Assembly: GCA_016788585.1 (NCBI GenBank)
Contig: JAEURP010000022.1
Span: forward strand, 1-64,000
Direction of reading: 5' to 3'
DNA from: Chthonomonas sp.
Lineage (GTDB): Bacteria > Armatimonadota > Fimbriimonadia > Fimbriimonadales > Fimbriimonadaceae
DNA: 64,000 nt
The notes beneath the pieces were generated by a model, which saw nothing but the letters and a program-made list of their open reading frames with translations, was not told the DNA's origin and did not search any database. The position numbers and the translations under genes were made by a program. Below are positions 37,742-60,919 of the stretch, one piece after another. Position 1 is the first letter of the stretch, and each line of letters opens with the position of its first letter.

Positions 37742-37776
37742 AGGGCCTTGGTCGTAAGATTACCTGGGTGCATTGA

Positions 37777-37954
37777 GGGACATGGCTAGACTTGGCGGGA
37801 CGTTGAGGGACATTGTCTCCCCAAATTCCCTACAATCCACCTTCCCCTCAGGCTTCCCGGTTAGTGTACGAGGACGGGTACGCGATTAGTTGCGTGATTG
37901 GGACTTTGTTACGTGGAGGGACAATGACGGGACGTTGCTGGGCGTGGCTAGAAT
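37777..37954. repeat. GGGAC-core repeat array upstream of four-helix-bundle gene 1
   Basis: GGGAC cores at 37777, 37797, 37807, 37900, 37918 and 37929, plus the variant GGGCG at 37939, are mostly separated by 10, 11 or 20 bp with linkers of the type rTTGn (for example GGGACGTTGAGGGACATTG). The array covers much of the space between the tricorn-protease start and the next gene. The inner end GGGCGTGGCTA is mirrored by TAGCCACGTCCC downstream of the gene, forming imperfect inverted arms around it. Confidence 0.8.
37949..37954 (+). promoter_or_regulatory. -10-like hexamer TAGAAT before four-helix-bundle gene 1
   Basis: TAGAAT ends 5 nt before ATG 37960; the second copy of this gene has the same hexamer at the same distance (43581-43586). 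Confidence 0.5.
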
Positions 37955-37959
37955 GAGGC

Positions 37960-38571
37960 ATGGAGTACCAGCCGAAAGGTAAGTGGCACCACTTTCGTGA
38001 CCTTGAGGTTTGGCAACTAAGCAGGGCGCTTGTGCCCGACATTTACGCCTTCGCATCGAAGCTACCGACGAAAGATGGCTTTGCGTACCCTGAACAGCTT
38101 CGCCGCGCCGTCCTGTCAATCTCTCTAAACATCGCTGAGGGGCATGGTCGTCGCACGGAAGAGAATTTCGCGCAATTTCTTAGGATTTCGCTTGGTTCAC
38201 TCAATGAAGTCGAAGCCCTGCTTATTCTTGGAGCCGAGTTGGGTTACCTCACTGAATCCGAATTGAAAGCCTATGAAGACCGGATCCGCACCCTAGCTGT
38301 GAAGCTGAGCAACTTCATTTCAGTCCTGAATTCAAATGTCGTAAGGGAGCCTGAGGCTGACTACGAATCCGATAGCCACGTCCCGCCAAGTCCCTCAACG
38401 TCCAGCAACTGTCCCGCTACGTCCAGCTACTTCGCCTCTTTCTTCACAAAATTCAACGCATTCCCGTTGATGCAGAACCGCAGTCCGCTAGGCGCAGGCC
38501 CATCAGGGAAAACGTGCCCCAGGTGGCCGTCGCACTTCGCGCAAAGGACCTCGACACGGGTCATGCCGTAG
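37960..38571 (+). CDS. Four-helix-bundle protein (S23/TIGR02436-like), copy 1, stop codon lost
   Basis: Residues 1-138 match the 'four helix bundle' family related to 23S rRNA intervening-sequence proteins (FRDLEVWQLSRALVPDIYAF, then AVLSISLNIAEGHGRRT, then SLGSLNEVEALLILGAELGY). I count about 22 differences from copy 2 over 138 residues. Copy 2 ends GAC-codon-like GAT then TAG; here one T is missing (GATAGC), so the frame runs on for 65 extra residues, the last 145 bp being antisense to msrB. The ancestral end was about 38373. Family members bind nucleic acid or act as accessory proteins; the function here is unknown. Inverted GGGAC repeats flank it. Confidence 0.8.
   Translation: MEYQPKGKWHHFRDLEVWQLSRALVPDIYAFASKLPTKDGFAYPEQLRRAVLSISLNIAEGHGRRTEENFAQFLRISLGSLNEVEALLILGAELGYLTESELKAYEDRIRTLAVKLSNFISVLNSNVVREPEADYESDSHVPPSPSTSSNCPATSSYFASFFTKFNAFPLMQNRSPLGAGPSGKTCPRWPSHFAQRTSTRVMP
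38373..38430. repeat. GTCCC (reverse GGGAC) repeat array downstream of four-helix-bundle gene 1
   Basis: Cores run in the opposite orientation to the upstream array, about 10-11 bp apart: CGTCCCGCCA, AGTCCCTCAA, CGTCCAGCAA, TGTCCCGCTA, CGTCCAGCTA. The array begins at the ancestral stop of the gene and ends within the msrB stop codon, so it fits exactly between the two coding regions. Confidence 0.8.
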
Positions 38572-38984
38572 CTCCGATCCGTGCGAAACCAGACGTTCTT
38601 GCGGTCGACCGGGAGCAGGAATGACGGCCAGCCGGTGCCGCTGTTGAACTTATCGTCGCTCTTGAAGAGCGGCAGTTTGCAGCCTGCGCAATGGTAGGCG
38701 CCATCCAGTTTGTTGTCCTCGAGGATGCCGCAAAAGGCTGGATCGGTGCCGTGGCTTCGCAGGATTTTGTATTGATCGGGCGTCAGGCGCTTGCGCCATT
38801 CGGCGTCGGTCAGCACCACTTTGTCGTCGCGCTTCGGGCTCTTCTCTTCGGGCTTCAGGGTGTCCCAGGTCAATGTCTTCTCCTTGGAATTGTTGTTGTT
38901 GGCGGGCGGGTCGCCGCTGTTCATTGCAAACGTCGCGACCAGCGCCGCGATCCCCGCGATGGCGATTGCTCCAATAGTGTGCAT
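38427..38984 (-). CDS. msrB: Peptide-methionine (R)-S-oxide reductase, membrane-anchored or exported
   Basis: Repairs oxidised methionine (R form). The MsrB domain shows the zinc cysteine pairs CAGC and CAKC, the SGTGWPSF motif, GHLGHVFPDGP and the catalytic RFCINGNAL (Cys171 of 185). An N-terminal hydrophobic stretch (MHTIGAIAIAGIAALVATFA) is a signal peptide or anchor, so it works outside the cytoplasm. The ATG at 38984 is chosen since the longer frame adds non-family sequence. The stop codon is formed at the edge of the neighbouring repeat array. Confidence 0.93.
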   Translation of the reverse strand: MHTIGAIAIAGIAALVATFAMNSGDPPANNNNSKEKTLTWDTLKPEEKSPKRDDKVVLTDAEWRKRLTPDQYKILRSHGTDPAFCGILEDNKLDGAYHCAGCKLPLFKSDDKFNSGTGWPSFLLPVDRKNVWFRTDRSYGMTRVEVLCAKCDGHLGHVFPDGPAPSGLRFCINGNALNFVKKEAK

Positions 38985-39041
38985 CCTAATAATTACAATA
39001 CGCGTTTCGCACGTGAAGTGCCCGTGTTCATGCAACATTCA

Positions 39042-39068
39042 TGCTGGACGTTGCGGGACATTGTCTCT
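39042..39068. repeat. Partial GGGAC repeat
   Basis: CTGGACGTTGCGGGACATTGTC carries two cores ten bases apart with no opposite arm; it abuts the hairpin repeat that follows. Confidence 0.55.
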
Positions 39069-39159
39069 CCCCTCCCAAGATTGGGAGGGGTTGGGGGAGG
39101 GTTGATGGCATACCGCACGCTTTCAACCCTCTCCCGGCCTCTCCCATGCTTGGGAGAGG
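39069..39159 (-). repeat. Three-hairpin GGGAGG repeat, copy A
   Basis: On the minus strand this ~90-bp segment aligns by eye along its whole length with 60749-60837. It contains CCTCTCCC...GGGAGAGG, GGGTTGA...TCAACCC and CCCCTCCC...GGGAGGGG inverted repeats in the same order. It lies 35 bp past the stop of the FN3 gene (minus strand). Confidence 0.8.
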
Positions 39160-39194
39160 AGTTCGAACGCCTTACCAGGTCTTTGTACTACTAC

Positions 39195-39833
39195 TCACGC
39201 CGCTACCGAAGGGCCCTTCGCCTCCCACCCACCATAAATTGACGCATAAGTGCTGGCTAGACTAGTTTGGTTATTGACCGTCGCTGTCACATAGAAGACC
39301 TTAGAAACTCCCGGCGTGAAGTTCTCGAGCGTAATCTTGAGCTTTGTCGTTGCGCCGACGTTGACCCACGGCCCAGCTAAACCCTTCGCCCAAACCTTAA
39401 ACAACGCCGACCGTGAGTTGCCGCTCCGGTTCCATTTCAGCGTCACGCTACCATTACTATGCGCTTCGGCAACCAAGTCCGTCACTTCCTTCGGAGACGT
39501 ACGCCTTCCAAACTCGGGCCGAGGTGAGAAGCCTGCCTTGTTCAACAGCGCATTGTCGACATCCGGATCGGCATAGACATAACGGGAGACTTGGCGAAGG
39601 GTCTCCAACACTTCATCGCGCAATGCGTTCTTGGCCGCTGCCATGGCCCGGCTATTTGCCTCCGCCGCGACCGCAACCATGATGCTTTCGGAGTAGGCCT
39701 CATTGAGCGAAACCAGCAAGTCCACGATCGCTTCCGGCACGCCATATTGAGCGTGGTCGTCGATCAGCGTCTCCGTAATCTCACTCACCTTCGCACGAAG
39801 ACCAAGGTTGTTCAAGTTCGCAAAGTCGTTCAT
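39195..39833 (-). CDS. Helical-N-terminus plus FN3-domain protein, family member 2
   Basis: 212 residues, no signal peptide or membrane helix. Residues ~20-105 are helical (IDDHAQYGVPEAIVDLLVSL, then SRAMAAAKNALRDEVLETLR) and end in SRYVYADPDVDNALLNKAGF, which matches the start of the shortened copy at 101-568. Residues ~110-205 are FN3-like (SVTLKWNRSGN, FYVTATVNNQTS). It ends in VAA as do the relatives. Function unknown. It is isolated, with repeats on its 3' side and a 314-bp spacer on its 5' side. Confidence 0.7.
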   Translation of the reverse strand: MNDFANLNNLGLRAKVSEITETLIDDHAQYGVPEAIVDLLVSLNEAYSESIMVAVAAEANSRAMAAAKNALRDEVLETLRQVSRYVYADPDVDNALLNKAGFSPRPEFGRRTSPKEVTDLVAEAHSNGSVTLKWNRSGNSRSALFKVWAKGLAGPWVNVGATTKLKITLENFTPGVSKVFYVTATVNNQTSLASTYASIYGGWEAKGPSVAA

Positions 39834-40147
39834 TTATGCTCTTCTTATCGGCATTGCCGGGCGAATTCTGCAGGATGTAGAGTCATCCTTGCACCGCGGA
39901 ACGGCGCAATTGTTACGTGGCAACCGGGCAATGCAGCGTGGAGGGCTGTCATTGCAGCAGTCGGTGACCTCATTGCTGCTCGGAAAGCGGCGCGATGCAC
40001 TATGCAAGCCCCTCAGGGTTGAATGTGTGGAGCCGCGTGCCATTAAGCCGCCCGTTCAAGGCCCTAAAGTTTTGGGGAACCTGGCTAAACTCGCCCGCTT
40101 CTAAGTACCAGCAACATTTGTTGCTAATGCATTTATACGAGAAAACT
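39834..40147. other. 314-bp spacer between divergent genes
   Basis: No convincing gene. The 69-codon minus-strand frame at 39834-40043 has an unusual basic, cysteine-containing composition and no family look. A palindrome AGCAACATTTGTTGCT (40110-40125) sits just before a TTATAC hexamer (40132-40137), which may be an operator and -10 box for the WD40 gene starting at 40148. Confidence 0.4.
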
Positions 40148-42451
40148 ATGTTCATTCAAGCTCAATTCCTAAGGGCCCTGGCCATGGTCAGCTTGGCGAT
40201 GGGTGCCATTGGCATCGTGAAAGCGGTCTCACTGCCGTGGGACTGGCAGGTTCCAACCAATCAGCAGCCTTTGGCCGTCGCCTTCTCGGCTGACAGTCAG
40301 GTACTGGCCGTCTCATCGGCTGGCAACGCGGTCCGCTTCCTCGACCCCGTGACCCTCGGCCAGATCAAGTCAATCCCGACCTCGGGTTACAGTGAACGTA
40401 TCGCAATGAGTCCGAACGGAGCAACCCTTGCCACGATGCAGGGGAACAACGTCATTCTCCATGACGTAGCCTCGTGCTTGCCAATTCGCACTCTAACGGG
40501 CCACACAGGTGCTGTGAAAGACGTCAAGATTTCCGCTGATGGTATTCACGTCGTTACCGCAGCCGCCGATAACTCAGTCCGAGTTTGGGATTTGGATTCG
40601 GGCGTCCTGTTGCGAACCATAGCCTTTGCGGGCACAGGGACGACGGTAAGGCGCGTCGAAATTTCGCCCGATGGGCAAACGATTATGGCCTCGTCGACAA
40701 CCCACCAGGTCAAGACTTTTGCCCTTGCGACCGGTGATCCTGGAGTGCTGGCGACGACCTTCACGAGCCCACTCAATGAGTTTGCCTTTTCGCCAAATGG
40801 GCAGTTGGTAGCATTTGCCGTGGCCGCCACGTCGAACAAGGTTCACATTTACAATGCTTCGACTGGAGTCCTAGTCAGGTCTCATGATGCACCCGGACCA
40901 ACTTTGGTCGAGTTCTCGCCCGACTCTCAAAATGTCTCCGCGATCACGGGGGGCGGCATACTCTTGCGGTGGCTCACTTCCGATGGTAGTGAGTTGCCAA
41001 GCCTCTTCCCTGTGGGACCAGCAACGCCCTACGATTTCGCTTACGCTCCAAACGGACAGAGCTTTGTCGTAGTCCACCTCGATCAGGGGTCAGTCAGCCG
41101 CTTTGACGCCAACGCGCTAACTCAACAAAGCGTGACCTCCGGGCATACGATGAACCCGGCGGACATTGACGTATCATCAACGGGATTGGCGGCCACGGTG
41201 GAAACAAAATTCCAACTCAGCTTCTTAAACATCTGGAACGCAGCGACGGGCGCGCATGTTCGAACAATGCAACCGCTCGGCTCAAACTTGGTGGGCACCG
41301 TGTTCTCACCCGACGGCACCCGAGTCTTGAGCCTGGCAAACTCCGGCGGGATGGATTCGTTCCGTGTCAGCGATGGAGTAAGAGAATGGAGCTCTAGCTC
41401 AACTGGAAGTTTCGGTTCTCTGTCCGCTGCATGGCAGGCCGATGGGCAGTTCATTTTCAGAGGTTCTGCGGATGGATACGTGGTCAGACATAGCGCTGCT
41501 ACCGGATCCGCGGGTGGAGCGGTGGGTGGCATCGGCGGTGCAACAACCGACGTTGTCATATTGCCGAGCGGCCAGGGCCTTTTGGCTTCGAGGGACGACG
41601 GCAAGACTTGGCTTTTGCCCATCCCTTTGGCGGTCCCGACAGTGATTCACACAGGGCCCAACCAAGCGATTCACGACATCTCCATTTCGCCTTCTGGAAC
41701 TCAGTTCGCGGCAGGTGCGGCTGACGGAGCGATCAGGATGTGGAATGTCGGCACCGCGGCCGTCTTCAAGACCATCACGGGGCATACCGACGACGTGACA
41801 GCAGTTAACTATGCTCCAAGCGGCTATCTGATCAGCGCTTCGTATGATGGGACGATTCGCTATTGGAATCCGAAGTCAGGGCAACAGATTGCGATCATCG
41901 ATGGAGTTGTGGGGTCTCCGACCTCTATGAAATTAGCGGCAGACGCGCGACACTTCTACATCGCGGGCAACATCGCTGGCCGGGCCAGCAACCCGATTCA
42001 GATGGTTTCCAGCGAATTGACACTGAGTCAAACGAGCCCGACCTTTGCGACTTCTCGGATGATTAACTACACAGTTAAGCAGGGAGCAACGACGCTGGCA
42101 TCTGGCTCGGTATCCACGAGTGCACCGACACTTTCTGTGTACATTCCGCTGGACGCTGGCCTGAGCGGAAGCGTCTCGGTTCAGTTCGAGGGCGCACACT
42201 TCCTCAGAAAATCGGTGCCGTTGACGCTCTCTGGGACCGACATGAGTCTGGGTAGCGTGGCCCTCGCAAATGGCGACGCCGATGACTCCGGCGAAGTGGA
42301 TGCAGCCGACATCGATCAGATCATTAGCGACTTTGGCGATGTATGGCCCGGCGGCATTGGCAATCCTTGGAGCGATCTCGATTGCAACGGTGAAGTCGAC
42401 GCGGGAGACATCGATCTTGCGATTGCCAACTTCGGACAGTCCGATCAGTAA
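40148..42451 (+). CDS. Secreted WD40-repeat protein with paired dockerin-like C-terminus
   Basis: 767 residues; signal peptide MFIQAQFLRALAMVSLAMGA. At least a dozen WD40-like blades follow (FSADSQVLAVSSAGNAVRFL, ISADGIHVVTAAADNSVRVW, ISPSGTQFAAGAADGAIRMW, YAPSGYLISASYDGTIRYW), enough for two propellers. After ~residue 620 comes the shared beta-sandwich (MINYTVKQGATTLASGSVST to HFLRKSVPLTLSG), then two EF-hand-like repeats (NGDADDSGEVDAADIDQI and DCNGEVDAGDIDLAIANFG). The longer frame from 39995 has no signal-like start. The C-terminus equals that of four other proteins in the window. Confidence 0.82.
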   Translation: MFIQAQFLRALAMVSLAMGAIGIVKAVSLPWDWQVPTNQQPLAVAFSADSQVLAVSSAGNAVRFLDPVTLGQIKSIPTSGYSERIAMSPNGATLATMQGNNVILHDVASCLPIRTLTGHTGAVKDVKISADGIHVVTAAADNSVRVWDLDSGVLLRTIAFAGTGTTVRRVEISPDGQTIMASSTTHQVKTFALATGDPGVLATTFTSPLNEFAFSPNGQLVAFAVAATSNKVHIYNASTGVLVRSHDAPGPTLVEFSPDSQNVSAITGGGILLRWLTSDGSELPSLFPVGPATPYDFAYAPNGQSFVVVHLDQGSVSRFDANALTQQSVTSGHTMNPADIDVSSTGLAATVETKFQLSFLNIWNAATGAHVRTMQPLGSNLVGTVFSPDGTRVLSLANSGGMDSFRVSDGVREWSSSSTGSFGSLSAAWQADGQFIFRGSADGYVVRHSAATGSAGGAVGGIGGATTDVVILPSGQGLLASRDDGKTWLLPIPLAVPTVIHTGPNQAIHDISISPSGTQFAAGAADGAIRMWNVGTAAVFKTITGHTDDVTAVNYAPSGYLISASYDGTIRYWNPKSGQQIAIIDGVVGSPTSMKLAADARHFYIAGNIAGRASNPIQMVSSELTLSQTSPTFATSRMINYTVKQGATTLASGSVSTSAPTLSVYIPLDAGLSGSVSVQFEGAHFLRKSVPLTLSGTDMSLGSVALANGDADDSGEVDAADIDQIISDFGDVWPGGIGNPWSDLDCNGEVDAGDIDLAIANFGQSDQ

Positions 42452-42480
42452 AGCCATCGCTTGAGCAAGTAAGCGACACG

Positions 42481-42531
42481 GCCCCTCCTAAACTGGGAGG
42501 GGCTGGTCCCGCCAAGTCCCGCTCCTGCGGG
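42481..42531. repeat. Hairpin plus partial GTCCC repeat
   Basis: A GCCCCTCC/GGAGGGGC hairpin (42481-42503), followed by GGTCCCGCCAAGTCCCGC with two reverse cores ten bases apart and a CCCGC/GCGGG hairpin. It lies directly downstream of the WD40 gene and could also end its transcript. Confidence 0.55.
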
Positions 42532-42542
42532 GCGGCAACCGC

Positions 42543-42548
42543 TAAACT
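42543..42548 (+). promoter_or_regulatory. -10-like hexamer TAAACT before the GNAT gene
   Basis: TAAACT ends 7 nt before ATG 42556 and no ribosome-binding site is present, consistent with a leaderless mRNA. Confidence 0.45.
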
Positions 42549-42555
42549 AACCCCC

Positions 42556-43515
42556 ATGGTTGCCGAACTCCAATATCAAGAACTCAGCGAACTCGCTCAC
42601 TTTGAGCGGGCGGCGGCGTTGCGCAACCAGTATGTGTGGATGGCGCCCGTGACCGGCGAGCAGTTGCAGGACTATGCCGCGCGGTTCCCGGAGGGCGTGG
42701 ACAAGAGGGCCGGGCTCTTTGCCGACACTGCAGATCGCGGTTATGTGCGCGTTGTGCAAGCGTTTTGGACCCACGACGAGGGGCTTTACACGAACAGCAT
42801 TTCGTATGACGAGGCGTCATACAGCGACGCGCTCGGTGACTTCCTCATCAAGAAGTCAGAAGAATTCGCGCGTGAATTCGGCGCGACGACGATGACTGCG
42901 TGGTTGCACAGCGATCGGCCCGAGTTGATTCAGGCCTATATGCGCGCTGGCTACGAGCCGGGGCAGATCAATCCGATGTCAGCGCTGAAACTAAGCGACT
43001 TCGACCCAACGCCGTACCTTGAGAACATCGAGGAAGTGAAAGCAAATGGCTATGAGCTGACCACGGTGGCCGTGCTGAAGGATCGCGAGCCAGAGCGCTG
43101 GGAGCACATGTACTGGCGGCACGACATGGACATCATGGCCGACGTTCCGCTGCCGGAGCCGTTTGTGGACATTCCGTTCGAGACCTTCAAGCAGGACCTC
43201 GCGGCGAAGGACACGGACCTGTCGCTTCTCTTCATAGCGATGAAGGACGGCGAGATCGCCGGTGGATCCGGCCTGATGCAAAACCTCGTGGACCGCACGA
43301 TTGGTAACACAGGTTTGACGGGCACTCATCGCGCACACCGCCGCCAAAAGCTAGCGACTGCGATGAAGGTGACGGCGCTGATGGAAGCCAAATCACGCGG
43401 CATGGAGATGATCTTCACCGACAACGAGGAGAAGAATCCGATGCTGCGTTTGAACGAAGCGCTGGGGTTCAAGCCGGTCCTTTACATGCAGGAGTATCGG
43501 CGCCAGCTAACGTAG
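42556..43515 (+). CDS. GNAT family N-acetyltransferase, two-domain form
   Basis: 319 residues, with an N-terminal acetyltransferase-like half (LRNQYVWMAPVTGEQ, FAREFGATTMTAWLHSDRPE, LIQAYMRAGYEPGQ) and a C-terminal GNAT half (LLFIAMKDGEIAGGSGLM, NTGLTGTHRAHRRQKLATAM, IFTDNEEKNPMLRLNEALGF). The second half has the acetyl-CoA loop as a modified RxxGxA (HRAHRRQKLA). Acceptor unknown. The stop codon abuts a GGGAC repeat arm. Confidence 0.82.
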   Translation: MVAELQYQELSELAHFERAAALRNQYVWMAPVTGEQLQDYAARFPEGVDKRAGLFADTADRGYVRVVQAFWTHDEGLYTNSISYDEASYSDALGDFLIKKSEEFAREFGATTMTAWLHSDRPELIQAYMRAGYEPGQINPMSALKLSDFDPTPYLENIEEVKANGYELTTVAVLKDREPERWEHMYWRHDMDIMADVPLPEPFVDIPFETFKQDLAAKDTDLSLLFIAMKDGEIAGGSGLMQNLVDRTIGNTGLTGTHRAHRRQKLATAMKVTALMEAKSRGMEMIFTDNEEKNPMLRLNEALGFKPVLYMQEYRRQLT

Positions 43516-43562
43516 CGGGACAGTGGCGGGACGATCGCTGGACATTGAGGGACGGTTGCTCG
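43512..43562. repeat. GGGAC repeat, left inverted arm of the four-helix-bundle element 2
   Basis: Cores GCGGGACAGTG, GCGGGACGATC, CTGGACATTG and AGGGACGGTTG lie 10-11 bp apart, beginning at the GNAT stop codon. The inner 16 bp TTGAGGGACGGTTGCT (43545-43560) are the exact reverse complement of 44007-44022 on the far side of the gene. Confidence 0.88.
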
Positions 43563-43580
43563 TGCCCACTAAACTTTGGT

Positions 43581-43586
43581 TAGAAT
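43581..43586 (+). promoter_or_regulatory. -10-like hexamer TAGAAT before four-helix-bundle gene 2
   Basis: TAGAAT ends 5 nt before ATG 43592, the same spacing as at copy 1 although the surrounding sequence differs. Confidence 0.5.
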
Positions 43587-43591
43587 GAGCC

Positions 43592-44008
43592 ATGGAGTAC
43601 CAGCCTAAGGGAAAGTGGCATCACTTCCGCGACCTTGAGGTCTGGAAGTTGAGCCGCGCACTGGTTCCTGACATTTACATATTCACTGCCCAACTTCCCG
43701 CGAAGGACGGCTTCGCTTATCCTGAGCAGCTTCGTCGCGCCGTTCTCTCCATCTCACTCAACATTGCCGAGGGCCATGGGCGGCGCACTGAAAAGTACTT
43801 CGCCCAATTCCTGCGAACCTCTCTCGGCTCATTGAATGAAGTCGAGGCACTATTGATCCTGGGAGTCGAGTTGGGTTACCTGAGCGGGGATGAGATGGGA
43901 GCTTATGAAGCTCGTATTCGTAACCTCGCGGTGAAGCTCAGTAACTTTATTTCTGCGCTGAACTCAAACGTTGTTAGAGAGACTGCAGCTGAGTACGAAC
44001 CCGATTAG
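43592..44008 (+). CDS. Four-helix-bundle protein (S23/TIGR02436-like), copy 2, intact
   Basis: 138 residues, all helical, with the family landmarks FRDLEVWKLSRALVPDIYIF, AVLSISLNIAEGHGRRTEKY, SLGSLNEVEALLILGVELGY and a last helix NLAVKLSNFISALNSN. Most differences from copy 1 at DNA level are synonymous, so the protein has been kept under selection. The family includes proteins in 23S rRNA intervening sequences and is structurally like the Avd accessory protein of diversity-generating retroelements; no reverse transcriptase is near. The stop codon overlaps the right inverted repeat arm. Confidence 0.85.
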   Translation: MEYQPKGKWHHFRDLEVWKLSRALVPDIYIFTAQLPAKDGFAYPEQLRRAVLSISLNIAEGHGRRTEKYFAQFLRTSLGSLNEVEALLILGVELGYLSGDEMGAYEARIRNLAVKLSNFISALNSNVVRETAAEYEPD

Positions 44009-44055
44009 CAACCGTCCCTCAATTGTCCCTCCACGTCCCGCCATGTCACGCCATC
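44007..44055. repeat. GTCCC repeat, right inverted arm of the four-helix-bundle element 2
   Basis: AGCAACCGTCCCTCAA then TTGTCCCTCC, ACGTCCCGCC and ATGTCACGCC: the reverse-orientation partner of 43512-43562. It runs from the four-helix-bundle stop codon to 2 bp before the stop of the convergent beta-lactamase-like gene. Confidence 0.88.
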
Positions 44056-44057
44056 GT

Positions 44058-45428
44058 TCACTCAGGCGTCGCGCTGACGCTGTAAACCTTTCCTTCCTTC
44101 GAGACCACGAAGGTAAAGATTTGCGCTCGGTCGGCAATCTTGCCTCTGTACTTCAGGACTGAGTCCGGACCATCTACGCTTGACTCCAGGAAAGCTAGCT
44201 CAGCGACATCCTTGAATCGGGCAAGGCCAGGAAGGCCCATCTTGCCGCGTGCGGTGCTCAGGCGGACGATCATCTCTGGGTCGAGCTGCGCCGGGTCGAG
44301 GGTGCCGGTTGAAAGGGTCTTGAGAGTACCGATGAGCATAGCCGTGCGCTCGGGGTTCGGGTCGGTCTTGGCGGCGGGCGCCTTGTACTTCATCGCCGGG
44401 ATGAACGCTTCGGCGATCTTGAGGGCGATGCCGTCGCCGGGCACGTCGTGAACATTGCCCATGAGGACGATGGTGAGTTGCTCGCTCGGAATGCGCATCA
44501 TGCTCGCGCAGAAACCGGCGGTGTTGCCGCCGTGACTCACGGCCTTGATGCCATTGACATTGCGGACGAACCAACCGAAACCGTAGCCGGTTGTGCGACC
44601 GCCGGGGGTCTTTGCGCTGGCTTGGGCGGCTTCGACCTCCGCGGATTTCAGGAACATGCCTTCGCGAAAGGCCTTCTCGAAAGCGACGAGGTCCTCAGGG
44701 TGGTTGATGAACGTGCCATCTCCGTAGCCGGGCTCGATGAAGAGGCCGTTCATGTGGCCCTGCGGCGTATTAAGATAGCCATGCGCGCGGTGCGGAATGA
44801 TGAGCATCTGGTCAGAGATGTAGCTCTTCTTCATGCCGGCCTTGTCGAAGATTCTGGTCTGGACCGCCTGAGTGATCGGCACTTTGAGGATGTCTTCGGC
44901 GATCTTGCCAAGGATGAGGTAGTTCGTGTTGGAGTAGGCGAAGAGCTGGCCGGTCTTGAAGTCGAAAGGCTGCGCGGGCATCTTTGTGAGCCACTCCTCA
45001 TAGGTCCACTGGTCGACGAGGCCGAGCGTGGGGATGGTCGCGTAGTCGGCGAGGCCGCTCATGTGGGTGAGGAGTTGACGGATGGTGAGCGGCTTCCACA
45101 ATTCGGGGCAATTGGGATAGCGCACGCCAAGCGTGTCGTCGAGTTTGAGCTTGCCTTCTTCGACGAGTTGGAGAATGACTGTGGCGGTGAAGGTTTTGCC
45201 GATGGAGCCGCTCTCAAAGACGTGGTTCTCGTTAATCGGCGTGTTTTGCTCGAGGTCATTCATGCCGTAAACCGAGCGCTTGATGACTTTGTCGCCTTTG
45301 GTGATGACGAGGCTGAGGCCAGGGATCTTTCGGGCCTTCATCTCGGCATTGACGACGGCGTCGATGTCTTGGGCGTAGGATGCGGAGGCGAGCAGAAGAC
45401 CAACAATCGCGACAGGAGTGCGAATCAT
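44058..45428 (-). CDS. Beta-lactamase-family serine hydrolase (class C-like fold)
   Basis: 456 residues with a signal peptide (VAIVGLLLASASYAQ). The penicillin-binding fold motifs are SxxK as SIGK (Ser75, Lys78) in FESGSIGKTF, and YxN as YSN in AYSNTNYLILGKIAED. A HGGN motif (AVSHGGNTAGFC) replaces the KTG box, as in esterase/peptidase members. A ~100-residue C-terminal domain follows. Substrate unknown: antibiotic hydrolysis cannot be inferred. It stands alone between repeat arrays. Confidence 0.88.
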   Translation of the reverse strand: MIRTPVAIVGLLLASASYAQDIDAVVNAEMKARKIPGLSLVITKGDKVIKRSVYGMNDLEQNTPINENHVFESGSIGKTFTATVILQLVEEGKLKLDDTLGVRYPNCPELWKPLTIRQLLTHMSGLADYATIPTLGLVDQWTYEEWLTKMPAQPFDFKTGQLFAYSNTNYLILGKIAEDILKVPITQAVQTRIFDKAGMKKSYISDQMLIIPHRAHGYLNTPQGHMNGLFIEPGYGDGTFINHPEDLVAFEKAFREGMFLKSAEVEAAQASAKTPGGRTTGYGFGWFVRNVNGIKAVSHGGNTAGFCASMMRIPSEQLTIVLMGNVHDVPGDGIALKIAEAFIPAMKYKAPAAKTDPNPERTAMLIGTLKTLSTGTLDPAQLDPEMIVRLSTARGKMGLPGLARFKDVAELAFLESSVDGPDSVLKYRGKIADRAQIFTFVVSKEGKVYSVSATPE

Positions 45429-45486
45429 ATCGAATGGAATACGGGGACTTAGGCTGGCGAAGTTTCGTAGCTTGCGAGGGCTCGAC

Positions 45487-45574
45487 GGTAGCGGGACATT
45501 GCTGGAAATAGAGGGACTTTGCTTTGTTTAGCTATGCCCAGCCACACCCAGCCATGTCCAGCCATGTCCCGCTT
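45487..45574. repeat. Gene-less GGGAC inverted repeat
   Basis: The left arm (TAGCGGGACATTGCTGG, AGAGGGACTTTGC) and right arm (CATGTCCAGCCATGTCCCGC) are imperfect reverse complements separated by TTTGTTTAG, forming a long hairpin with no coding sequence inside. The arms use the same decamer units as those around the four-helix-bundle genes. Confidence 0.78.
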
Positions 45575-45588
45575 CATAATTGAAGGAA

Positions 45589-46767
45589 ATGCCTGCATTG
45601 ATCGCCATCTTCCTGACCGTGCTCATCGACATGTTGAGCTTTGGGATGGCGATTCCGGATTTGCAACTTCGCGGCGAATCGCTGGGGGCGCATGGGCCAT
45701 TGCTTGGCCTAATGCTCGCCTCGTTTAGCATCGCCCAACTCCTAACCGCACCCTTCTTGGGGCACTGGAGCGATCTCGTTGGGCGCCGAAAGGTCCTTTT
45801 GGTCACATGCGCAATGACCGCTTTGTGCTTTCTGCTTTATAGCCAAGCACACTCACTGCCAGTCATGTTTGCGTCGCGCATCCTGGCGGGAATCAGCGGG
45901 GCCAATCTGGGGGTCGCTTTTGCGTACATCGCCGACGTGACCAAACCCGAGGACCGAGGAAAGGGGATGGGGCTCGTTGGTGCCGCTTTTGGTATTGGGT
46001 TTATCATGGGCCCCCCGGTGGGCGCGGCGTTGGTCGAAATGGGCAAGGGTGGACCGTTTGTTCTGGGGATGACCGCGATGGCGCTTGCCCTCGTCAACCT
46101 GTTTTTCATTTGGCGGTTCATTCCGAATACGAAACCAGCAGATCCTCCAAAAGCTAAAGGTAATCCTCTCTTGGCGAACTGGCGCAACGTAATGACCGCG
46201 TTGCAGGTGCCAAGCCTCAGCGTCTTGGTTTATCTCTTCTTTGGCTCTACCTTTGCCTTTTCCAATTTAGAAAGTACTTACTTCCTATTGCTTTCGCATC
46301 AATGGAACATGCCGATGCGCGAAGGGGCTTGGGTGTTGGCTTGGGTGGGCATTGTCTCTGCGTTCATGCAGGGCTACTTCATCGCGAAGTTGATTCCGAA
46401 ATTTGGGGAGCCCACTCTCATGCGCGTTGGCTACCTCGCCCAAGTGCCTATTCTTCTTCTGGTTCCGTTCACACCGCCCTGGGTGCCGATGCTGTTTGGG
46501 TGTTTGTTGCTGGGTATTGCGACGGGAATATGCAGCCCTAGTACGTCTTCGATGATCTCTCGAACGGCGCCGCCTAACATGCAAGGGAGCATTTTTGGCG
46601 TGACGCAATCAGTCGGTGCCTTGGGGCGAGTGTTGGGGCCGCTGTGCGGAAGCACCTTGTTTGCGAAGGGACCAGCCTATCCTTACTACTTGGCAGCCTT
46701 GGTGATGCTCATACCTGCAACGCTGTCCTGGCGAGTGAAAATGCCGGGCGAGGAAGGCATGGCATAA
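45589..46767 (+). CDS. Major facilitator superfamily transporter (TetA-like drug exporter family)
   Basis: 392 residues and 12 predicted membrane helices. The MFS motif GHWSDLVGRRKVLL after TM2 and the antiporter motif GAAFGIGFIMGPPVGAAL in TM5 place it in the proton-driven exporter group. ATG 45589 is preferred to TTG 45580. Substrate unknown. The upstream space is a GGGAC inverted repeat; a small membrane-protein gene follows closely. Confidence 0.85.
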   Translation: MPALIAIFLTVLIDMLSFGMAIPDLQLRGESLGAHGPLLGLMLASFSIAQLLTAPFLGHWSDLVGRRKVLLVTCAMTALCFLLYSQAHSLPVMFASRILAGISGANLGVAFAYIADVTKPEDRGKGMGLVGAAFGIGFIMGPPVGAALVEMGKGGPFVLGMTAMALALVNLFFIWRFIPNTKPADPPKAKGNPLLANWRNVMTALQVPSLSVLVYLFFGSTFAFSNLESTYFLLLSHQWNMPMREGAWVLAWVGIVSAFMQGYFIAKLIPKFGEPTLMRVGYLAQVPILLLVPFTPPWVPMLFGCLLLGIATGICSPSTSSMISRTAPPNMQGSIFGVTQSVGALGRVLGPLCGSTLFAKGPAYPYYLAALVMLIPATLSWRVKMPGEEGMA

Positions 46768-46775
46768 TCCCTGCA

Positions 46776-47111
46776 TTGCAGTCGCGGAATATCACGGGCC
46801 AAGTCATAGGAATCACCATCTTTTTGGGTGGGGTTGCGCTGTTGTTGCTGACTTTTCGCATTGCTTACGACTTGTTTCAGCGACCAGCCGCTGATGTCTT
46901 AGGAATAAAGGCCGAGCAAACGATCGACGTCAACTTCGCTGGGCGCTCGGCGATGGAGTTGGTCTTTCGCATCGCGCTTTTGCTCCTCATGTGCATCGTC
47001 GGATCGGTGATCGCCAATCGAGGCATTCGAATGTATCAGGCAGCGATCGGTGAAGTTCGGCATTCGAAGCACCAAAGTACCAAACTAGAGCAACCAACCG
47101 AAGAGCCATGA
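46776..47111 (+). CDS. Small two-helix membrane protein
   Basis: About 111 residues if it starts at TTG 46776. Two hydrophobic helices (VIGITIFLGGVALLLLTF and LVFRIALLLLMCIVGSVIAN) flank a short loop, and a polar C-terminal tail follows. No family recognised. The frame runs upstream into the MFS gene, so the start is uncertain. Its stop overlaps the comM ATG (ATGA), so it is co-translated with comM. Confidence 0.55.
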   Translation: MQSRNITGQVIGITIFLGGVALLLLTFRIAYDLFQRPAADVLGIKAEQTIDVNFAGRSAMELVFRIALLLLMCIVGSVIANRGIRMYQAAIGEVRHSKHQSTKLEQPTEEP

Positions 47112-48631
47112 GCTACGGAACGATCATCGGTCGCTCGCACACCGCCACGTTACATGGCATCGACGCGGTCGGGGTCGAAGTCGAAGTCGATCTGCAGGGC
47201 GGCCAACCAGGAACCACGATTGTTGGCCTGCCTGATAAGGCCGTGGACGAAGCCCGCGAGCGGGTTCGATCGGCGATCCGAAGTACCGAGCTTCGCTACT
47301 ATGGCCACCGCGTCATTATCAACCTTGCCCCCAGCGATATCCGCAAGGAAGGCTCGGGCATGGACTTGCCCATCGCGGCGGCCATTCTTGCAGCGCAAGG
47401 CGACCTTAGCCCAGACGCTTTGGCGGACACGGTGATGATTGGCGAGTTGGCCCTCGATGGCCGCGTGCGTCGGGTGGATGGCGCCTTGAATGTTGCCCTC
47501 TACTGCGCGCAGAACAAGATCCCGAATCTAATCGTCCCGGAGGAAAATGCCGCCGAGGCCGCGATTGCGCCCGGCGTGAATGTCTATGGAGTCCGTAGCC
47601 TCGGCGATGTCATGAGGCACTTTAACGACACGCCTCTTACGGCATTTCAACACGAAACTGACGGTCTTAAGCAGGAGCCGGTTTATCACGTTGACTTCAG
47701 CGATGTAAAGGGGCAGAAACATGCGATCCGCGCGCTCGAAATCGTGGCTGCAGGCGGGCACAACGTCATCATGACGGGGCCACCGGGCAGTGGCAAAACC
47801 ATGCTGGCGAGGCGCGTGGTCACCATTCTTCCACCGTTGAGTCTTGAGGAAAGCATCGAGGTCACCCGCATCTATTCGGCGTCGGGGCAAAAGGGCGAAG
47901 TGCAGGGTCTGATTTGGGAAAGACCTTTTCGAACGCCGCACCATACGACAAGCTACGCCGCGGTCGTCGGAGGTGGAAAATTCCCCAAGCCGGGCGAAGT
48001 GAGCCTCGCGCACCACGGCGTTTTGTTTCTGGATGAGTGTCCGGAGTTTGGCCGTGATGTTCTAGAGGCCTTGCGGCAGCCGCTCGAAGATTCAGTCATT
48101 ACCGTGAGCCGAGTACAGGCCACGCTCACTTTCCCGGCTGCTTGCATGTTGGTTGCGGCGATGAATCCTTGCCCGTGCGGATTCAAGGGTTATCCGGAAG
48201 CAAATTGCGTTGGCTCGCCCGCCAGTTGCGGCAAGTACGCTCAACGCCTTAGCGGGCCGCTGATGGATCGCATTGACCTTCACATCACGGTTCCTCGTTT
48301 GAAGCCCGACGAACTCATGAACATCTCGCCGGGTGAGCCTTCTTCTGAAATTCGGAAACGCGTGCTCGCGGCCCGAGAACAGCAATCGAAGCGGCTTGGT
48401 GGGTCACGCACCAACGCGCGAATGACGCCAGCTGAGATTCGCGATCTGATTCAATTGGACGCCGAAGCAAAAGAGTTCATCAAGCAAGTTTCGGCCAAGA
48501 TGAACCTATCGGCACGCGTTTTCGATCGCATTCTCAAGGTCTCAAGGACGATCGCCGACCTCGCAGGTTCGGATGACGTCACGAAAGCCCATATCAGTGA
48601 AGCGGTTCAGTATCGGGAGCGGGAAGCGTAG
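47108..48631 (+). CDS. comM: YifB/ComM family Mg-chelatase-like AAA+ ATPase
   Basis: 507 residues. An S5-like N-terminal domain (IVGLPDKAVDEARERVRSAI) is followed by an AAA+ core with Walker A MTGPPGSGKTML and Walker B GVLFLDECPEFGRDVLEAL. A cysteine cluster (NPCPCGF to NCVGSPASCGKYA) and the C-terminal Mg-chelatase region follow. In naturally competent bacteria ComM is a helicase promoting branch migration during transformation; here no competence genes are adjacent. The stop codon is followed immediately by a GGGAC inverted repeat. Confidence 0.93.
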   Translation: MSYGTIIGRSHTATLHGIDAVGVEVEVDLQGGQPGTTIVGLPDKAVDEARERVRSAIRSTELRYYGHRVIINLAPSDIRKEGSGMDLPIAAAILAAQGDLSPDALADTVMIGELALDGRVRRVDGALNVALYCAQNKIPNLIVPEENAAEAAIAPGVNVYGVRSLGDVMRHFNDTPLTAFQHETDGLKQEPVYHVDFSDVKGQKHAIRALEIVAAGGHNVIMTGPPGSGKTMLARRVVTILPPLSLEESIEVTRIYSASGQKGEVQGLIWERPFRTPHHTTSYAAVVGGGKFPKPGEVSLAHHGVLFLDECPEFGRDVLEALRQPLEDSVITVSRVQATLTFPAACMLVAAMNPCPCGFKGYPEANCVGSPASCGKYAQRLSGPLMDRIDLHITVPRLKPDELMNISPGEPSSEIRKRVLAAREQQSKRLGGSRTNARMTPAEIRDLIQLDAEAKEFIKQVSAKMNLSARVFDRILKVSRTIADLAGSDDVTKAHISEAVQYREREA

Positions 48632-48725
48632 AGGGACGGTAGCGGGATATGGCTGGATGTTGAGAGACATTGTCTTTTGTTAGCAATGTCCCTCAATTAT
48701 CCCTCCATGCCCAGCACTTTCCCTC
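48631..48725. repeat. Gene-less GGGAC inverted repeat with 42-nt arms
   Basis: The left arm 48631-48672 and right arm 48684-48725 are imperfect reverse complements (ends GAGGGA/TCCCTC and inner TTGAGAGACATTG/CAATGTCCCTCAA) around an 11-nt loop. It exactly fills the space between the comM stop and the VOC gene promoter. Confidence 0.88.
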
Positions 48726-48737: not shown

Positions 48738-49064
48738 ATGCAGACCAGCTTCACTCCCAACATTGCTTTTGGCGTTGCCAACATGAACGAGGCGGCGATG
48801 TTTTACGAAAATGTCATGGGCTTCAGGGTTACGAAGCGGCACGATAACTACGTCGAGTTGGATATGGGAGGAGCAAAGCTCTACCTTGTGGAAGACAGCC
48901 TCCGAGTTCCGTGCCTCGAGCTAGTTGCCAACGATGTCGACGCGGCGGGCGACTATTTGGAGCATCACGGTTGCAGCGTCGATGAGAAGCACAGCGAAGA
49001 AGCTGGCGAGACGATCGTCCGCGATCCTTTCGGCTATTACTGGTGTGTGAGCAAAGCTAATTAG
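48738..49064 (+). CDS. VOC/glyoxalase-bleomycin-resistance fold protein
   Basis: 108 residues forming one vicinal-oxygen-chelate unit: FTPNIAFGVANMNEAAMFYE, then GFRVTKRHDNYVELDMGG, then CLELVANDVDAAGDYLEHHG and TIVRDPFGYYWCVSKAN. Such proteins work as dimers and often bind a metal. Enzyme activity cannot be assigned; the usual metal residues are only partly evident. Monocistronic. Confidence 0.8.
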   Translation: MQTSFTPNIAFGVANMNEAAMFYENVMGFRVTKRHDNYVELDMGGAKLYLVEDSLRVPCLELVANDVDAAGDYLEHHGCSVDEKHSEEAGETIVRDPFGYYWCVSKAN

Positions 49065-49164
49065 GAATTGGGAATTGGGAAACAAGGATTAAGAGGCTGC
49101 GCGAGACTCGAGCTCTGCATTTACATCATCGCCATTCCTAATTCCTAATTCGAAATTCCCATTT
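49060..49164. repeat. GGAATT-type inverted repeat
   Basis: Tandem TTAGGAATTGGGAATTGGGA (49060-49080) faces its reverse complement-like ATTCCTAATTCCTAATTC then AAATTCCC (49134-49160). The right arm lies inside the 3' end of the DUF454 gene. Confidence 0.7.
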
Positions 49165-60723: not shown

Positions 60724-60748
60724 GTTGGGGCTTGGGGTTCGCGCTACT

Positions 60749-60919
60749 CCTCTCCCGAGACCGGGAGAGGGTGGGAGAGGGTTGAAAAGTGTGGCATGCG
60801 ATCAACCCTCCCCGACCCCTCCCAAGCTTGGGAGGGGAGAGACAAACCCCTCTCCTGTTCGAGCTTCCCTTGCACTCGCGCGGGACTCCTCGAACTTCCT
60901 CTCCCGCAAGGGGAGAGGA
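60749..60919 (+). repeat. Three-hairpin GGGAGG repeat, copy B, plus further hairpins
   Basis: 60749-60837 aligns with the reverse of 39069-39159: CCTCTCCC...GGGAGAGG, GGGTTGA...TCAACCC with TGGCATGCGA in its loop, then CCCCTCCCAAGCTTGGGAGGGG-like palindrome arms. Two more inverted repeats follow: GTTCGAG/CTCGAAC (60857-60895) and TCCTCTCCC/GGGAGAGGA (60897-60919). Confidence 0.82.

Follow-up and report, generated by a model that had tools for sequence, protein, structure and literature searches.

PF05635 (S23) genes and inverted short-unit arrays form a compact unit across prokaryotes

In a 64,000-nucleotide stretch of Chthonomonas sp. DNA (Armatimonadota; contig JAEURP010000022.1, positions 1 to 64,000, hereafter the window), two four-helix-bundle genes each lie between short tandem repeats, with a GGGAC array upstream and a GTCCC array downstream. 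This arrangement raises the question of whether such a gene and the repeats around it belong together as one genetic element; the initial annotation proposed a mobile or mobilised element family built on a GGGAC core with a 10-bp period. Our analysis reveals that genes of PF05635 (S23, the 23S rRNA intervening-sequence protein) occur across prokaryotes in a compact assembly of an inverted array, the gene and a complementary array. The repeat unit is copy-specific and tends to accompany the protein. Related genomes differ in whether a given site holds the assembly, and a genome can also contain scattered gene-less arrays built from the unit of its gene.

Profile searches place both window genes in PF05635 (101 and 96 bits, cut-off 33.8) and TIGR02436 (97 and 90, cut-off 24), and the arms around both are inverted and complementary, as first described. 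Element A, delimited by a congener alignment gap (37911–38426, plus strand), contains an upstream arm of GGGAC units (37915–37951, plus strand), gene A (37960–38571, plus strand; domain 37996–38310, Pfam 4e-29) and a downstream arm of GTCCC units (38375–38424, minus strand) that ends at the SelR stop codon. The open reading frame (ORF) of gene A continues through the downstream array, because the GATTAG of gene B reads GATAGC in gene A. In element B, an upstream arm of GGGAC units spaced 10–11 bp (43512–43560, plus strand) is followed by gene B (43592–44008, plus strand; 138 aa, Pfam 2e-27) and a downstream arm (44007–44055, minus strand). The perfect match between its arms, put at 16 bp in the initial annotation, in fact extends over 17 bp (43544–43560/44007–44023). 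The complementary ends of the window elements make a long stem around the ORF, and RNA folding of the whole of element B gives an extended stem whose loop contains the gene (fold z −4.5). PF05635 is the sole gene between the arms in the Pfam scan, with no Y1/HuH transposase there, and the same scan found no reverse transcriptase next to the window genes. Rfam detected no rRNA in the window, only one tRNA, and the element sites are intergenic; PADLOC found no defence system.

The AlphaFold2 model of the gene B protein (pLDDT 92) is a four-helix bundle, which is nearest among solved structures to XCC0516 (2gsc; Z 17.6, root mean square deviation 1.7 over 115 residues), followed by BT_0352 (2rld; Z 15.7), Avd of diversity-generating retroelements (DGR) (4dwl; Z 13.9) and a DGR ribonucleoprotein (8ub7; Z 13.4). 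As modelled, the protein thus has the fold of XCC0516 and of Avd. The 2gsc and 2rld entries hold five chains each, and a XCC0516 pentamer is described in the literature, as quoted in PMC4990558. A close homologue of XCC0516 sits between accB and accC within GGGAATC arms.

To ask how general this arrangement is, we scored the best local complementarity between the 250 nt on either side of each gene (threshold 13.5) for 164 PF05635 genes from the same genome, its order, its phylum and GTDB, the GTDB scan being queried with a close six-sequence protein alignment, as the broader alignment was too diverse. Inverted arms are found at 122 of the 164 genes (74%) and at 7 of 140 controls (5%; p 1.7e-38), and direct-repeat scores are far below the inverted ones. 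The 57 genes from the order have a median score of 17 vs 8.5 for control genes of the window, and 24 of 29 genes from the phylum exceed 13.5. Across GTDB, 57 of 79 genes pass vs 6 of 95 control genes from the same loci, in a set spanning Bacteroidota, Proteobacteria, Planctomycetota, Acidobacteria, Chloroflexi, one candidate phyla radiation member and Methanophagales archaea; in Xanthomonadaceae, 30 of 31 PF05635 genes have inverted arms. Many copies occupy housekeeping operon gaps (groES–groEL, accB–accC, nuoC–nuoD). Strict operon embedding was rejected as a general rule. Both neighbours are codirectional at 62 of 107 loci, only a moderate orientation bias. Several distant, longer PF05635-like proteins (about 190–300 aa; L008, L039, L040, L042 and the second match in L050) are mostly armless and possibly constitute a separate subfamily.

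The GGGAC decamers of the window are one local variant among many unit families. The genome contains eight PF05635 matches, seven above the curated cut-off, and by eye the copies outside the window also carry inverted short tandem arrays, with the unrelated and mostly 7-bp units GGTCTAT, GGGGTGT, GGGTCTC and GGTTTCA; array counts across this genome come from a pattern search and sampled stretches. The proposed mobile or mobilised family is supported in part, as regards its inverted arrays, empty sites and gene-less copies, and unsupported as a family defined by GGGAC and a 10-bp period. Across loci, 7 bp is the most frequent period, the majority of arms comprise 3 to 5 units, and the 84 period-7 arms fall into 76 heptamer classes. 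The two arms of one locus reach the threshold at 74% of loci, as compared with 1.7% for arms taken from two different loci, and G exceeds C in the upstream arm at 101 of 107 loci. Rotational alignment of the heptamers yields a weak common pattern, GNRRTYR (3.38 bits, where 60 shuffles reach at most 3.02), which is a tendency and not a rule, as the Coxiella unit GACAGAT fits it poorly.

The sequence of the array tracks the protein and not the site. When copies at different sites are compared, arm similarity climbs with protein identity, from about 0.16 for proteins less than 60% identical through 0.30 at 60–70% to 0.46 above 70% (four pairs only in this last class), whereas at the same site proteins 40–50% identical have unrelated arms (0.19). 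Several close pairs retain similar units although their synonymous sites are saturated (genes A and B, pS 0.83, dN 0.10), and this points to the unit being constrained; concerted slippage could possibly also account for it. The protein itself is under strong purifying selection, with dN well below dS in 10 of 10 gene pairs tested. Some PF05635 copies in G207, G209, G210 and G215 have one in-frame stop codon, as expected of decaying elements.

Comparison with congeners provides filled and empty sites. Element A is absent from G001 and G004, in which the alignment ends at 37910 and restarts at 38427; these empty alleles have neither gene nor arms, and their tricorn–SelR spacer is 163 or 134 nt. 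At groES–groEL, stop and start are separated by one or two bases in G000 and enclose an element of about 550 bp in G004, giving an element length of about 0.5 kb at the two filled sites measured. The initial annotation had named two outcomes that would tell against it, namely that four-helix-bundle genes are flanked no more often than other genes and that empty sites are never found; given the flanking excess and these empty sites, neither was observed. The aspS site is occupied in G001 and G004 by a PF05635 gene flanked by TAGGAAT arms, and lacks both gene and array in G002. In G000 (C26:13122-13534, L185) the same position holds an inverted array without a gene, built from another heptamer; either the unit was replaced or the site was used independently more than once. 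The element ends vary from copy to copy, where a fixed terminal inverted repeat like that of insertion sequences or miniature inverted-repeat transposable elements was looked for. The empty alleles of site A (L183, L184; window 37900–37910) already hold one unit-like GGGACTTTG beside the insertion point, and this single GGGACTTTG is possibly a sign that insertion relies on homology with one unit.

Gene-less copies are present in the window itself. Two stretches previously listed as GGGAC arrays, 45487–45574 and 48631–48725, are each a complete gene-less GGGAC/GTCCC hairpin with inverted arms (RNA fold z −3.7 and −7.4, respectively; no strand assigned). A third hairpin, likewise unstranded (49059–49164; z −2.5), is built from a different 7-bp unit, TAGGAAT, which is the unit of PF05635 elements in the congeners G001 and G004. 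Among 119 Xanthomonadaceae genomes, 54 with and 65 without PF05635 (overlapping matches counted, phylogeny uncorrected), 27 of 54 vs 6 of 65 genomes have at least 20 GGGAATC-triplet matches (p 1e-6), and 17 of 54 vs 1 of 65 have at least 5 GGGACYC matches (p 3e-6). Where an arm was sampled, GGGAATC arrays are numerous in every one of the nine genomes with a GAAT-type arm vs 6 of 21 others (p 7e-4), a comparison that was not blind because the arms were typed visually when the GGGAATC counts were already known. The genomes with a GGGACYC arm were named before the GGGACYC search, and all four have at least 57 matches, with at least 50 in 4 of 26 others (p 0.003). The reversed control pattern is silent almost everywhere; its 131 matches in G249 arise because the pattern is that genome's own PF05635 arm unit, AGGGCTC.

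All the GGGAC arrays listed in the initial annotation are present in the window sequence. Same-strand GGGAC/GTCCC pairs spaced 9–12 or 19–22 bp number 13 in the window, against a mean of 0.4 and a maximum of 5 in 200 second-order Markov sequences, and just 3 pairs are spaced 13–18 or 23–30 bp. The pentamer is not over-represented (90 GGGAC vs ~127 expected), so that clustering alone, and not abundance, is its unusual feature. An extra GGGAC array upstream of element A (37773–37815, plus strand) has no partner of its own, a short GTCCC array lies at 42502–42523 (minus strand), and the array at 39042–39068 (plus strand) is a short GGAC/GGGAC remnant containing one exact GGGAC. Separate from these arrays, a palindromic intergenic repeat of ~95 bp occurs at 39066–39162, adjoining the GGGAC remnant, and at 60746–60845, with many copies in the same genome at 75–98% identity.

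We regard it as an even call whether an S23 gene and its cognate inverted arrays perpetuate themselves as a single element, functioning as RAYT-REPIN does but without the transposase; such an element would probably act on RNA or single-stranded repeats. The ligand recognised by the S23 pentamer may be the repeat in RNA or single-stranded DNA form, perhaps with one unit per subunit, and S23 together with host enzymes may spread or maintain the hairpins in trans. RNA would be the likelier ligand, since the relative in 23S rRNA intervening sequences (IVS) acts in RNA, where RNase III carries out the excision (PMC4990558), and the fold of Avd functions within a complex containing RNA. By analogy with the IVS, the transcribed arms may pair into an RNase III-type stem, and we propose that insertion into operons is tolerated because such a stem would form. 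Overall, the partnership looks selfish and previously undescribed.

Several observations weigh against this proposal. Binding, copying or movement of the repeats by the protein is something we infer, and the Pfam scan found no catalytic domain. No target-site duplication is apparent in the two filled/empty pairs, whose identity of about 80–87% is too low for base-exact junctions. Arms are undetectable at 26% of PF05635 genes, some PF05635-positive genomes are without the tested arrays, and arrays occur where the gene does not (at least 5 GGGAATC matches in 9 of 65 PF05635-negative genomes; 126 GGGACYC matches in G220). The Xanthomonadaceae association is also phylogenetically uncorrected, and random 20-kb samples from the order yielded 2 gene-less hairpins in 400 kb of PF05635-positive and 0 in 400 kb of PF05635-negative genomes, too few for a test of dispersal in that order.

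The strongest competitor, which we consider unlikely, is regulatory: the arrays would be RNA or DNA binding sites through which S23 autoregulates its gene and controls neighbouring transcripts, with movement rare and due to host recombination only. The many copies in housekeeping operon gaps, the purifying selection on the protein and the repeat-binding protein that MacGregor proposed for TAACTGA heptamers in Beggiatoaceae (PMC4679880) are consistent with it, whereas the merely moderate orientation bias of the neighbours and the dispensability suggested by presence/absence among congeners and by in-frame stops are not. Still harder to sustain is a passive origin, in which intergenic sites prone to hairpins acquire arrays through slippage and quasi-palindrome template switching, and recombination between repeats picks up S23 genes as mere passengers. 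Arm homogeneity and unit turnover do fit slippage and hairpin correction, and the lack of a catalytic domain and the arrays in genomes without the gene also count in its favour; however, one protein family is flanked in 74% of cases vs 5% of other genes, the arrays follow the protein and stay similar past synonymous saturation, and genome-wide array abundance tracks both gene presence and unit. Least credible, despite Avd and the DGR ribonucleoprotein being the nearest folds outside S23 proteins and the treatment of PF05635 and Avd as homologous (PMC10053308), is Avd-like retro-mobilisation, in which S23 would partner a reverse transcriptase that copies hairpin RNA back to DNA, as a reverse-transcriptase requirement is unsupported: genomes 96–99% complete with five (G008) and three (G035) PF05635 genes have no PF00078 match, and reverse transcriptases occur in 6 of 25 PF05635-positive vs 4 of 36 PF05635-negative order genomes.

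The association of S23 genes with arrays joins two puzzles. S23 proteins are widespread, with structures solved since 2006 and no known role, and intergenic heptameric repeats, known for decades, have lacked a partner protein. The link offers each protein its own arm as a specific candidate ligand, and suggests that the 23S rRNA IVS is a special case of a much broader element. More tentatively, and with the balance somewhat against it, S23/PF05635 may be the founder of a type of selfish element in prokaryotes whose small ring protein, without known catalytic domain, recognises and propagates arrays of near-freely evolving short repeats, which would explain the heptamers of Xanthomonas, Nostoc and Beggiatoaceae as well as the 23S IVS.

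Heptameric repeats of the same intergenic short-unit kind as the present arrays have been described in Xanthomonas, often as inverted pairs, and Nostoc (PMC4692102), in Nostoc trnL P6b (PMC4476775) and, as TAACTGA, in Beggiatoaceae (PMC4679880); searches of these papers turned up no link to S23. None was found in the literature searched, whose coverage leaves out preprints and most subscription journals, so that priority for the S23–array link is unproven. The Coxiella 23S IVS has an S23p ORF, complementary ends, heptamer repeats beside the ORF and RNase III excision (PMC4990558). The present elements resemble the IVS of Coxiella and Leptospira in the protein family and in an ORF between complementary stem-forming ends, but lie in intergenic DNA and operon gaps rather than rRNA, have tandem arrays as both arms, vary in unit from copy to copy and are accompanied by dispersed unit-matched gene-less arrays. 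With the DGR they share the four-helix fold of Avd, which works in an RNA–protein complex with reverse transcriptase; unlike in the DGR, no cognate reverse transcriptase or template/variable repeat was seen, and some carrier genomes have no reverse-transcriptase match at all. As in RAYT-REPIN (PMC3116915), inverted repeats surround a protein gene and cognate copies without a gene are numerous in trans, here the window hairpins and the Xanthomonadaceae arrays, the latter scored as array matches. Unlike RAYT-REPIN, there is no Y1/HuH transposase, the arms are tandem 7–11 bp units instead of one repetitive extragenic palindrome, and unit diversity is extreme. The elements thus lack the rRNA location that defines the IVS, the transposase that defines RAYT-REPIN and the reverse transcriptase that defines the DGR, and RAYT-REPIN would be their best functional analogue.

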